DNA from: a virus
Reading direction: 5' to 3' (one strand)
Length of the DNA stretch: 59,145 nucleotides
IMG/VR virus record: IMGVR_UViG_3300022841_000020
Coordinates: 1 to 59,145 of that record
Shown here: positions 13,143 to 39,504 of the stretch, piece by piece
How positions within the stretch are numbered: the stretch's first letter is position 1
Layout: each line of letters opens with the position of its first letter
The notes under the pieces: generated by a model
The model's input: only the letters and a program-made list of their open reading frames with translations
What the model was told of the DNA's origin: nothing
Database searches by the model: none
Program-made: the position numbers and the translations under genes

Positions 13143-13202
13143 AGCCTGCAGGACGTAGAGAATATTGCTGCAGGCATCTAACTAAATAAATTAATTATTA
13201 TG
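13143..13202 (+). repeat. leader repeat with GCCTGCAG hairpin, copy 2
   Basis: Second copy of the 11756-11816 leader, shorter by one T. It again ends at the start codon. Conservation of both hairpin arms and the loop in non-coding DNA indicates selection or recent duplication. Confidence 0.85.
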
Positions 13203-13697
13203 GGAAATTACACATTAAGCACTTGTGAAAAATTAATAAACAAGTATGTAAACGAATACGACGCATTGCCAGAGGTAGTAAAAACCATTTTAAGCACCTT
13301 TGATTATAATAACGATTTATACAAAGAATGTGTAAAGATCGAAACCAAGTTAGCTAGCATAAATTACCAGTGTAATTATGGTTTAAGCGGTGAAATTTAT
13401 GATGTTAAGCCCCTTGTCAAATTTTCTAAATTCTTTGAGGTTGACGGATATTGGAAGGACGACAAAACAAGCTTCAGAGACGCTTTATTTTCTGTAGATG
13501 TTCCAGATATAGAGGCTGAAAAAATCAGCGATACAACCCTAATCAATGGCGTAATGGATTTAGATATTTCTCATTACGGCCTTGACGAATCAGAAATTAA
13601 GAGACTAATAGAAGAGGGGGCGGAGAACGATCAACTGGATTTTGTGATCACGGCTTACAAGCCTTTTTTTCCTAAAATAATTACTAGAAACCGTTAG
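13200..13697 (+). CDS. hypothetical protein (165 aa)
   Basis: A 165-residue acidic protein. The N-terminal 30 residues are helical (STCEKLINKYVNEYDALPEV), the middle beta-rich. I recognise no family. It is preceded by the duplicated leader and lies just after the ArdA-like gene, so it is a candidate anti-defence gene by association only. Confidence 0.5.
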   Translation: MGNYTLSTCEKLINKYVNEYDALPEVVKTILSTFDYNNDLYKECVKIETKLASINYQCNYGLSGEIYDVKPLVKFSKFFEVDGYWKDDKTSFRDALFSVDVPDIEAEKISDTTLINGVMDLDISHYGLDESEIKRLIEEGAENDQLDFVITAYKPFFPKIITRNR

Positions 13698-13747
13698 AGC
13701 GGTTAAAAATAGGTGTTAAGCTCTAAGCGTGGAGGGTTCGCCCTCCA
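13694..13747 (+). promoter_or_regulatory. two leader hairpins before 13775
   Basis: First stem TTAGAGC/GCTCTAA (13694-13700 with 13720-13726). Second TGGAGGG-TTCG-CCCTCCA (13730-13747), an ultrastable UUCG tetraloop. No T run follows, and the next ATG is 28 bases downstream. Confidence 0.6.
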
Positions 13748-13774
13748 GTCACATTAATTTTAAAATCACGGGAA

Positions 13775-22760: not shown

Positions 22761-23495
22761 ATGGAACTAAAAGTTATCGGCTCTGGAAGTCAAGGCAATT
22801 CCTACATCTTAACTAATGGTACAAACGTATTGTTAATTGAACTTGGAGTGAATTTCAAACGCATCAAAAAAGCATTAGATTTTAATATATTGAATGTAGA
22901 TGGGGCCTTAGTGTCCCACATACATTCTGATCACTCTAAAGCTATCAAAGATGCGATTGAATGTGGAATTGACGTTTACTCTGGAGCTGAAACTATTGAA
23001 GCAACAGGCTTAAAAAATCACAGGCTAAAAATCGTAAAGGCAAAAAAATCCTACACGATAGGCTCCTTTAAAGTGATGCCATTCGAATTACGTCATGACG
23101 TTGCTTGCTTTGGATTCATAATTAAGCACCAGGACTGCGGTAACGTTGTTTTTATTACAGATACTTATTATTCCCCATTTAGATTTAAAGACGTCAACCA
23201 GTGGATTATTGAGGCTAATTACAGTCAAAGCATACTAGATGGAAAGGAGGGTTACGGCAATCAAAATGATTTTCTGAGAAATAGAGTAATAAGCAGCCAT
23301 TTATCCATTGAAAATTGCTCAAGCTTATTAGATGCAAACGATTTAAGCACCACAAACAATATTGTGCTTACTCATTTATCAGACAGAAATAGTAATGCGA
23401 CTGAGTTTAAGGAAACAATACAAAATCAAACCGGTAAAACTGTAAGTGTAGCAGAAACCGGACTAACAATAAATTTTAAAAAAAGACCTTTTTAA
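22761..23495 (+). CDS. metallo-beta-lactamase-fold nuclease-like protein
   Basis: A 244-residue MBL-fold hydrolase of the YycJ type. Zinc ligands visible: HIHSDH (about residue 53), His in 'ELRHDVACFGF' (about 113), Asp in 'VFITDTYY' (about 132) and His in 'VLTHLSDRN' (about 210). In phages such proteins lie next to recT, where an exonuclease is usually encoded. It starts three bases after recT and overlaps the next gene by one base. Confidence 0.85.
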   Translation: MELKVIGSGSQGNSYILTNGTNVLLIELGVNFKRIKKALDFNILNVDGALVSHIHSDHSKAIKDAIECGIDVYSGAETIEATGLKNHRLKIVKAKKSYTIGSFKVMPFELRHDVACFGFIIKHQDCGNVVFITDTYYSPFRFKDVNQWIIEANYSQSILDGKEGYGNQNDFLRNRVISSHLSIENCSSLLDANDLSTTNNIVLTHLSDRNSNATEFKETIQNQTGKTVSVAETGLTINFKKRPF

Positions 23496-24924: not shown

Positions 24925-24932
24925 TATATTTG
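24925..24932 (+). promoter_or_regulatory. -7 element of the putative small RNA
   Basis: TATATTTG whose expected start point (about 24938) coincides with the 5' arm of the RNA closing stem. No good -33 box. Confidence 0.5.
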
Positions 24933-24937
24933 ATTTA

Positions 24938-25053
24938 GCAAGAGATCAAAATAAAAAATATTTATCAGGGGTAAAACCCGAATAATCGCTCGTACTCCTC
25001 CTCTTGATCTCTTGCCGGATTCAAAAAAAGTACGGGCTTTTTTGGTTTTGAAT
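24938..25053 (+). ncRNA. putative small RNA with 12-bp closing stem and own terminator
   Basis: Perfect 12-bp inverted repeat GCAAGAGATCAA (24938-24949) with TTGATCTCTTGC (25004-25015) encloses 54 bases holding a GGGT-AAA-ACCC hairpin (24969-24979) and a pyrimidine-rich CTCCTCCTC stretch. An intrinsic terminator follows at once (25019-25053: ATTCAAAAAAAG / CTTTTTTGGTTTTGAAT). A -7 box sits directly upstream. No reading frame of any length fits. The architecture (promoter, 5'-3' paired ends, terminator) indicates an independent RNA of about 115 bases. It could instead be a leader attenuator for the replication gene at 25267. Confidence 0.62.
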
Positions 25054-25266
25054 ATTAACGGAACCTCGCAATACTAAGTTTATTATTCCTAGTAAAATAA
25101 CATAGGTTTTAAAAAAAATAGCATGAAGACTAACGTAGTAATGAAGAGGGAAAAGTAGAACCAAGTTTTCTTGTTTCTACAACTAAGGCTACATAAAGAC
25201 CTTTAATGAACTCCAAGAACAACTTAGAGTTTTATACAGAAATAAGTATAATAAAATATCAGCATA
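25054..25266. other. non-coding stretch before the replication initiator
   Basis: About 210 bases after the RNA terminator without a credible gene; only very short frames. It may serve as the leader of the DnaD-like gene or contain the origin, but I see no repeats that show this. Confidence 0.4.
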
Positions 25267-26127
25267 ATGAGCAAAGGATGGATAAAGCTTCACAGAAACC
25301 TAATTGATTGGGAATGGTATGATGACATAAATGCTAGAGTATTATTAATACATCTTCTCCTTTCAGTCAATTACGAGGATAAAAAATGGAAGGGAAATTT
25401 AGTCGAAAAAGGAACAATGGTTCTTAGCTGGAGCACACTTTCTTCAGGTTGTGGCCTTTCAGTCAAGAAATGTAGGACTGCTATGAGTAAACTAGAAGAT
25501 AGCGGTGAAGTGACAAGGTTAGCGACAAGCAAATTTCAGGTGGTAAGGCTAGTAAAATGGGATAAACTACAACAAATAGATGAGGCAGAGGGCAAGCCAG
25601 TAGACAAGCAAACGGACAAGCTGAGGGCAGACAAAGGGCAGGCTGAGGGCAGACAAAGGGCAACAACTAAAGAAACTAATAAACTAAAGAATATAAGAAG
25701 TAAAGAAACTAAGAATATTCTTTTGTCCGAAGTAAAAACTTCGGACTTAGTGGATTTAGAGATTACATATTTTGAAATAGCAAAAGCGTTTAAAGAATTA
25801 TTTATTAAAAATATTTCAGAAAACGGAGGTTCAAATCAAAACCAAAAAAACGCTAAGTACAAAAATTACACAGAGCCAATCCGATTGATGATGGAGAAAG
25901 ATGGAGTGACCAGAGATCAAATAATAAAAGTTTGGAAATTCTTAGGCAGCCAAGAAGGAGATTTTTGGAAATCTAATATTCTATCAACCCAAAAATTAAG
26001 AGAAAAATTTTCACAATTAATAATAAAAGCTAATCAAAATGAAAACAGGGATAACAGCAAAAAGTTCGGAAATCAATCAAGTGTCAAAGGAACGTTCAGC
26101 ATTATTGATTCGCTCGTTAGCGACTAA
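25267..26127 (+). CDS. DnaD-like replication initiator / replisome organiser
   Basis: A 286-residue protein. Residues 1-105 are a winged-helix domain typical of phage replisome organisers: 'GWIKLHRNLIDWEWYDD', 'LLIHLLLSVNYEDKKWKG', 'GTMVLSWSTLS', 'GLSVKKCRTAMSKLEDSGEV'. A Gln/Lys-rich linker follows (115-155), then a C-terminal domain (170-265) ending 'GDFWKSNILSTQKLREKFSQLI', as in DnaD/DnaB-like loader-recruiting domains. It probably binds the phage origin and brings in the host helicase. No phage helicase or polymerase is seen in the window. Confidence 0.75.
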   Translation: MSKGWIKLHRNLIDWEWYDDINARVLLIHLLLSVNYEDKKWKGNLVEKGTMVLSWSTLSSGCGLSVKKCRTAMSKLEDSGEVTRLATSKFQVVRLVKWDKLQQIDEAEGKPVDKQTDKLRADKGQAEGRQRATTKETNKLKNIRSKETKNILLSEVKTSDLVDLEITYFEIAKAFKELFIKNISENGGSNQNQKNAKYKNYTEPIRLMMEKDGVTRDQIIKVWKFLGSQEGDFWKSNILSTQKLREKFSQLIIKANQNENRDNSKKFGNQSSVKGTFSIIDSLVSD

Positions 26128-38424: not shown

Positions 38425-38889
38425 GTATAATAAAAATAGAATTAAACACTGGTATCTATATAAAAAAGATATATTTTGAATCCGACACTACTGATTTAAA
38501 TTATAGAACACACAAAAATTAAATAAGTAATGCTAAATTTTGAAGTTTTCTCTCAAGCTTATTACGCCTATAAATAAAAATTAGAATACCAAAATTAAAT
38601 TGTATGTTTGCTTTGCGAAACAAATTTAACTTGGAGTATTCCAAAAAAAAAAATATATCTAAAATTAATAACTGCTTAGGCGTAGTTCTCTCGATTCTAT
38701 TTACTCCGGTATTAGTTTGTTTCGCAACAAAGAGAGAGCTACGCTCTTTTATTTATTAATTTTAAATTTATTCCTAATGCGAAACAAGGGAAAAAGTCAA
38801 GCTCCGACAAAAAACGAGCAACACTTCAGCGTGATAGACCACCAGACCACCACACAAAAAACTTTTACTAACACTAAAACCGAAAACTT
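38425..38889. other. non-coding structured region upstream of the Rha-type gene
   Basis: About 465 bases without a gene. It holds three TGCGAAACAA-type motifs, a long imperfect dyad and an interleaved second dyad (see the separate entry), then AC-rich DNA before the Rha start. No TAnnTTTG plus-strand promoter was found. Confidence 0.5.
38612..38750 (+). ncRNA. pseudoknot-like structured element with terminator
   Basis: Arms A TTTGCGAAACAAA (38612-38624) and B GGAGTA (38633-38638) pair with B' TACTCC (38702-38707) and A' TTTGTTTCGCAA (38716-38727). Inside the loop, C GCGTAGTTCTCTC (38680-38692) pairs with C' GAGAGAGCTACGC (38732-38744), outside the first stem, giving an H-type pseudoknot. C' can also form a GAGC-TAC-GCTCTTTT terminator-like hairpin. 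A further TGCGAAACAA lies at 38778-38787. This suggests a switchable leader RNA or a DNA element; strand and transcription are unproven. Confidence 0.42.
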
Positions 38890-39504
38890 ATGAATGAGTT
38901 AGAAAACAACAGTGGAAAAATGACAAGTTTAGAAATTGCTGAGCTTTCAGGAAAAAGACACGGAGATGTACTTCGAGCAATAGAAAAAATGCAAATATCT
39001 TGGGTTAAAGTAGCACAACGTAATTTTTCGTTATCCTCTTACATCAATGAAAACAATAGAGCAATGCCAATGTACTCACTTTCAAAAACGGAAACTTTAT
39101 ACATTGCTACCAAATTTAACGACGAAGCAAGAGCAAGGTTAATTCTTAGATGGGAAGCTTTGGAAATTGAAAAGCAAAAGCCACTATCTCAAATAGATTT
39201 AATCATACAATCTGCACAACGATTAAAAGCGATTGAGGAAAAGGAAATCGAACAAGATAAACGTATTCGATTATTAGAAGCAAAAGTGGTAACAATTCCT
39301 GAATATTTTACAATTGCAGGGTATGGTACTTTAAACGGTGTTAGTGTTAATATCAAGTTAGCAAGTAGATTAGGGCGTGAAGCTTCTAAAATATGCAAGG
39401 ATAAAAACCTATTAACAGATACAACTCCCGATCCAAGATTTGGTAAAGTAAAAATGTACCCAAAAATAGTGCTAGACCAAGTATTTAATACCGTGCCTTT
39501 GTAG
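38890..39504 (+). CDS. rha-like: Rha-family phage regulatory protein
   Basis: A 204-residue protein. The N-terminal domain (1-100) matches pRha: 'MTSLEIAELSGKRHGDVLRAIEKM' (landmarks TSLEIAELSGKRH, VLRAIEKM), 'YSLSKTETLYIATKFNDEARARLI'. A coiled-coil linker follows, then a C-terminal KilA/ANT-like domain (135-204). Rha proteins are regulators often borne by temperate phages. It is a plus-strand gene within the minus-strand virion module, with a long structured leader and its own terminator: a moron cassette. Confidence 0.8.
   Translation: MNELENNSGKMTSLEIAELSGKRHGDVLRAIEKMQISWVKVAQRNFSLSSYINENNRAMPMYSLSKTETLYIATKFNDEARARLILRWEALEIEKQKPLSQIDLIIQSAQRLKAIEEKEIEQDKRIRLLEAKVVTIPEYFTIAGYGTLNGVSVNIKLASRLGREASKICKDKNLLTDTTPDPRFGKVKMYPKIVLDQVFNTVPL

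Follow-up and report, generated by a model that had tools for sequence, protein, structure and literature searches.

The window analysed here, a DNA stretch of 59,145 nt (positions 1-59,145 of IMG/VR record IMGVR_UViG_3300022841_000020), contains at 24938-25053, on the + strand, a non-coding element that was originally predicted to be an independent small RNA within an early operon. The question raised by this locus is whether such an RNA acts on its own or controls the genes that follow it.

Most of the parts named in the original prediction are present (Table 1). The -7 box TATATTTG lies 5 nt ahead of position 24938, with no clear -33 element on inspection of the sequence, and the closing stem is indeed perfect, its arms GCAAGAGATCAA and TTGATCTCTTGC forming an exact 12-bp inverted repeat. 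The inner hairpin was also correctly recognized, and its GGG/CCC arms are invariant in three relatives. No ORF of at least 60 aa was found within the element by an ORF search, in line with the lack of coding potential first proposed, and the view that it resembles no nameable riboswitch agrees with Rfam 15, in which neither the window element nor the canonical members described below, from 11 loci, have a match above the gathering threshold. The terminator is real as well, but the better stem for it is S2, a 9-bp helix that runs straight into the U-tract and was missed at first reading. Of the two arms of S2, the 5' one falls within the loop closed by the 12-bp helix and the 3' one beyond it, so that the two helices cross, an arrangement that would amount to a pseudoknot or, if the helices do not coexist, to two alternative structures. 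The fold energy is -32.2 kcal/mol, whereas shuffled sequences give -19.8 (sd 3.1) and 0/200 of them are as good (z -3.99). In a model unable to represent pseudoknots, structures constrained to contain S2 are about 6 kcal/mol less stable than the nested optimum. This first copy is a real structured element. The pyrimidine stretch CCTCCTC, for which pairing with a purine-rich Shine-Dalgarno-like or anti-repressor target had been suggested, is present too, but it is one base shorter in relatives (CTCCTC); because the stretch is not conserved, the target-binding idea is rejected, and an anti-Shine-Dalgarno role is further unsupported since Bacteroidetes mRNAs naturally lack Shine-Dalgarno sequences (PMC6847099).

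Table 1. Features of the two leader copies in the window and of the genes next to them
Feature	Position	Strand	Basis or remark
-7 promoter box TATATTTG, first copy	24925..24932	+	Bacteroidota TAnnTTTG form; sequence, kept in L002 and L009
5' arm of the 12-bp long helix, equivalent of loop A	24938..24949	+	exact inverted repeat; covariation
A/U-rich linker with AAAAAATATTT, like the linker of canonical members	24954..24964	+	sequence
GGG/CCC hairpin in linker	24968..24979 (arms 24968-24970/24977-24979)	+	invariant in three relatives
5' arm of terminator stem S2, GCUCGUACU (GCTCGTACT)	24988..24996	+	relatives' pairing; crossing-helix search
CCTCCTC stretch, S2 internal loop	24997..25003	+	length not conserved
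3' arm of the 12-bp long helix, equivalent of loop B	25004..25015	+	exact inverted repeat; covariation
3' arm of terminator stem S2, AGUACGGGC (AGTACGGGC)	25029..25037	+	relatives' pairing; crossing-helix search
U-tract UUUUUU, expected 3' end of the attenuated RNA	25038..25043	+	sequence
DnaD-like helicase loader gene, first long ORF after the first copy	25267..26127	+	phrog_2514, E 1.4e-36
-7 box TATGTTTG, second copy	38603..38610	+	descriptor match
Second copy	38613..38755	+	helix 38613-38626/38714-38727 crossing S2 38680-38691/38733-38744, then U-rich tract
38-codon ORF, start 33 nt after second-copy S2	38777..38893	+	runs into Rha-type antirepressor gene at 38890

Near relatives from IMG/VR (loci L002-L005 and L009) retain the promoter box as well as the two helices. 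Compared with L002, the long helix shows two compensatory changes (C-G to G-C and G-C to A-U), the kind of change in homologues by which the original prediction had proposed to check the stem, as well as one C-G/U-G change and one gained pair, and S2 shows a U-G to C-G change. As this window set consists of three sequences from essentially two lineages and its covariation is matched by 58/500 shuffles, the covariation of the window element alone is suggestive only. The L009 element has a two-gene cassette (phrog_12688 and phrog_11501) about 60 nt downstream. This cassette is absent from the window, in which an 11-codon ORF begins 86 nt after S2 and the DnaD-like gene begins at 230 nt. The first-copy leader probably served the cassette still found in L009, genes that the window would have lost, and their absence would explain why this copy now stands upstream of the DnaD-like gene. 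The window and L009 also share a 165-nt block (window 25111-25276, L009:9853-10018; 96% identical), which lies directly ahead of a replication gene in both, the two genes being unrelated. This block has no long ORF, bears a GUAGAA..UUCUAC-type hairpin, and contains an 11-codon ORF (MKTNVVMKREK) in which the L009 differences are synonymous or start/stop variants.

The element is not alone in the window. A descriptor combining promoter, crossing helices and U-tract finds two matches in these 59 kb, with scores of 50.5 and 52.0, and since shuffles give 0.004 matches of at least 46 per 385 kb, the two high-scoring copies are not due to chance. In the L060 homologue of the second copy, the helix is kept through three both-sided (compensatory) changes, read by eye. 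The small ORF ahead of the Rha antirepressor gene has 38 codons in the window and about 104 in L060 (L060:1834-2148), as if it had been partly deleted in the window. Elsewhere in the window, a Pistol self-cleaving ribozyme is located at 13689-13753 (+; RF02679, 59.4 bits versus a gathering threshold of 34.5) and overlaps the end of the ORF 13200-13697.

The element's order of parts recurs, in unrelated sequence, in the gap before the replication genes of the Cellulophaga phages phi18:3, phi13:2 and phi19:3, which have in common with the window a gene module of RecT, a metallo-hydrolase, ssb (DUF3127 family) and replication genes. In the window, 22761-23495 (+) encodes a metallo-beta-lactamase-fold hydrolase (phrog_392) with a weak likeness, below the family cut-off, to the anti-Pycsar protein Apyc1. 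Descriptor 1, in which TAnnTTTG is followed by a helix and, crossing it, a stem with a U-tract at its end, gives 8 matches scoring at least 42 versus 0.03 expected from dinucleotide shuffles (385 kb), a count that comprises near-duplicates and the second window copy (38603-38755), and 14 matches of at least 40 versus 0.2 expected in a fresh sample of 78 loci (832 kb), nearly all fetched after descriptor 1, via the ssb gene. In the canonical form, a 5' hairpin H1 carries a loop A of 6-9 nt that is the exact complement of loop B, which is displayed by a hairpin H3 atop the terminator stem S2, thus making kissing loops. Descriptor 2, which describes this kissing-loop form without a promoter and was designed after the first matches were seen, and so is not independent of them, gives 17 matches of at least 58 versus 0.5 expected, and a stricter kissing descriptor with the promoter gives 20 matches in ssb-linked loci versus 0.17 expected.

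The kissing descriptor with promoter has no match in 736 kb of Bacteroidota genome DNA or in 288 kb of further phage DNA (Bacillus, Streptococcus and Marinitoga phages plus 14 IMG/VR loci with unchecked hosts), control DNA that is partly GC-rich and therefore has a lower chance of holding the promoter box. The stricter descriptor finds no promoter-bearing match of at least 46 in eight stretches of named Bacteroidota phages; its sensitivity is limited and it overlooks real members, as descriptor 1 finds phi18:3, phi13:2 and phi19:3. The single-family model R1 matches only close relatives and nothing in 395 Bacteroidota genomes, in which the sequence-structure model R2, based on canonical members, has one marginal match under strict filters that may miss members. 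Nucleotide BLAST in phages and plasmids returned nothing meaningful, and exact arm and core patterns, run against viral and genome collections, were abandoned after finding only near-identical phages or chance bacterial matches without the stem. Most class members have the promoter box TAnnTTT(G/A), and nearly all of the reported matches have the same orientation as the gene that follows. Across subfamilies, only the promoter and the A/U-rich linker are conserved, whereas loops and stems vary freely.

Because MAFFT places the 5' hairpins wrongly when all members are aligned together, covariation was counted in two orthologous sets. In the first (n=22), both-sided changes are found in 12/25 pairs, versus 4.0 (sd 1.1) in shuffles, with 0/500 shuffles as high and 0-2 in slid controls; 5/6 kissing-helix pairs and 3/3 H3 pairs show such changes. 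In the second (n=10), they are found in 13/27 pairs (0/500 shuffles; slid controls 0-4) and in 3/7 kissing-helix pairs. The predicted kissing helix varies while its pairing is kept. G-U states are frequent in the helices of these sets, and their occurrence in covarying helices favours an element that acts as RNA.

In our judgement, the first copy likely belongs to this class of kissing-loop leaders, as a divergent member by architecture and synteny. It has a TAnnTTT(G/A) box before the first arm, as does the second copy, the crossing A/B order, and S2 with its U-tract. It differs from the canonical members in its longer helix (12 bp), in its weak H1 and H3 candidates (UUUGAU/AUCAAA, which overlaps the -7 box, and UUGA/UCAA), both of which compete with the 12-bp helix, and in the result of R2, which has no match in the window, L002, L009 or L060 at E<=1. 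The GGG/CCC hairpin is not disqualifying, since some canonical members seem to carry an extra linker hairpin, noted by eye in L107, one L111 copy and the minus-strand L098 copy. As for an ATG within about 60 nt, one is found 33 nt after the second copy and about 60 nt after the element of L009, compared with 86 and 230 nt for the first copy.

No more than 30 nt separate the terminator from the ATG of the following ORF (at least 45 codons) in 79% of 24 members, versus 10% of 196 other terminator-like hairpins of the same loci, and the ATG-to-S2 spacing in the close-set members is 9-30 nt. The genes that follow encode DNA helicases, Erf annealing protein, helicase/primase, DNA methyltransferase, DnaD-like and DUF6291 proteins. 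When DUF6291, a replication-type gene, was used as an anchor, 80 IMG/VR loci were fetched, of which 78 had enough upstream DNA; the element is directly ahead of the ATG in at least 41 of these 78 under relaxed settings run without a null, and several more were recognized by eye. Three members have a spacer of 52-55 nt (L098:7798-7948, L107:7608-7756 and L028:489-642) and share a similar stretch between terminator and ATG (AGTTTACTGGAACTTAAAACCTTTATTTAT in L107), perhaps another control element. In the members with a spacing of 9-30 nt a further promoter would not fit, so that the genes rely on the leader promoter or on upstream transcription and, either way, on passage through the terminator.

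It is on this point that the original prediction is only partly upheld: a structured non-coding RNA of about 110 nt, equipped with a promoter-like box and a terminator of its own, stands, but its independence does not fit an ATG 9-30 nt away in 79% of members. A trans-acting small RNA, in which promoter, pseudoknot body and terminator produce a stable RNA of about 110 nt for other targets and the downstream gene is incidental, is unlikely. It would agree with the retention of the RNA in L009 despite different following genes, and it stays a rival mainly for the first copy, as the downstream gene of this copy is unusually far (next long ORF 230 nt off). Nevertheless, arms and loops vary freely with their pairing kept, and no stretch besides the A/U-rich linker is conserved for target binding. 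Less probable still is a plain terminator or RNA stabiliser, in which S2 would end upstream transcripts, the crossing helix would form a compact nuclease-resistant end, and no regulation would take place. S2 and the U-tract are plausible as an ordinary intrinsic terminator of the upstream ssb operon, but compensatory changes preserve the pairing of loop A with loop B, and the promoter expected to drive the next gene is located ahead of S2.

A cis-acting attenuating leader is the most parsimonious interpretation, and the element is probably a 5' leader RNA that attenuates phage early DNA-metabolism genes. Transcription would start just after the -7 box, and the first ~105 nt would fold into two mutually holding parts. 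In canonical members the upstream part would be a hairpin that carries loop A, and in the window just a 12-nt arm; the downstream part would be the terminator hairpin S2 presenting loop B, the exact complement of loop A. The A/B pairing, by kissing loops or, in the window, by a pseudoknot, would be coupled to a stem that leads into a U-tract close ahead of the start codon. At this tract RNA polymerase would frequently halt, giving the RNA of about 110 nt as an attenuated product, the 'small RNA'; readthrough to the gene would take place only if S2 did not form or were overcome. The loop-loop pairing would be part of this switch, or stabilise it, and a phage or host factor may release the leader and so time the DNA-metabolism genes. 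The terminated RNA may additionally act in its own right. A more speculative extension, which we hold with considerable doubt, is a regulon-wide timer, in which the repeated leaders of one phage, each with a terminator loop kissing an upstream hairpin, would be recognized, by their kissing shape and not by their sequence, by a phage or host factor that frees several early DNA-metabolism genes together.

The same leader could instead work on translation, as the U-tracts are short in some members: the kissing structure near the start codon, just 9-30 nt past S2, would govern ribosome entry, and the U-run would be an unstructured initiation region. The stretch after S2 is a terminator-type T-run and not A-rich, and we regard this explanation as improbable, slightly more so than the plain terminator. 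A signal in the DNA itself (cruciform, origin or protein site), to which inverted repeats near replication genes might point, is barely credible in view of the frequent G-U states, the RNA-like crossing order and U-tract, and the orientation of almost all matches with the next gene.

To our knowledge, the timing of genes in Bacteroidota phages is little understood, and a leader that recurs directly in front of genes for replication, recombination and helicases would offer a concrete control point for these phages, as well as aid the annotation of many phage contigs. No description of a kissing-loop leader was found in the open-access literature searched, in which attenuator work (PMC4878617 and PMC3753616) was listed, subscription papers being outside this coverage, and these leaders are apparently an undescribed RNA family in viruses of Bacteroidota. 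By analogy, they would work like antisense attenuators and terminator-type leaders, while belonging to no Rfam family. Type III toxin-antitoxin RNAs also place a pseudoknotted RNA and a terminator ahead of a gene, but in this class the downstream genes encode replication and recombination proteins; for the first copy this identity was discarded, the region having no tandem repeats and the next long gene being DnaD-like. The put sites of phage HK022 suppress distant terminators, and their RNAs resemble the leaders in that a pair of structured hairpins close behind an early promoter affects termination, whereas the second hairpin here is itself terminator-like. Terminator-type riboswitches, among them the purine class with its kissing P2/P3 loops, are likewise 5' leaders with loop-loop contacts coupled to transcription termination; no conserved multi-base ligand core was seen in the leaders, only the A/U-rich linker and the promoter being shared between subfamilies. 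In pT181-type plasmid antisense attenuators, the leader terminator of the rep gene is controlled by loop-loop pairing with a separate antisense RNA. A terminator in a replication-gene leader and loop-loop control are common to both, but the partner loop is there on a separate antisense RNA, whereas here both loops are in one transcript. The kissing-loop leader would be a natural, self-contained case of kissing-loop-coupled termination.
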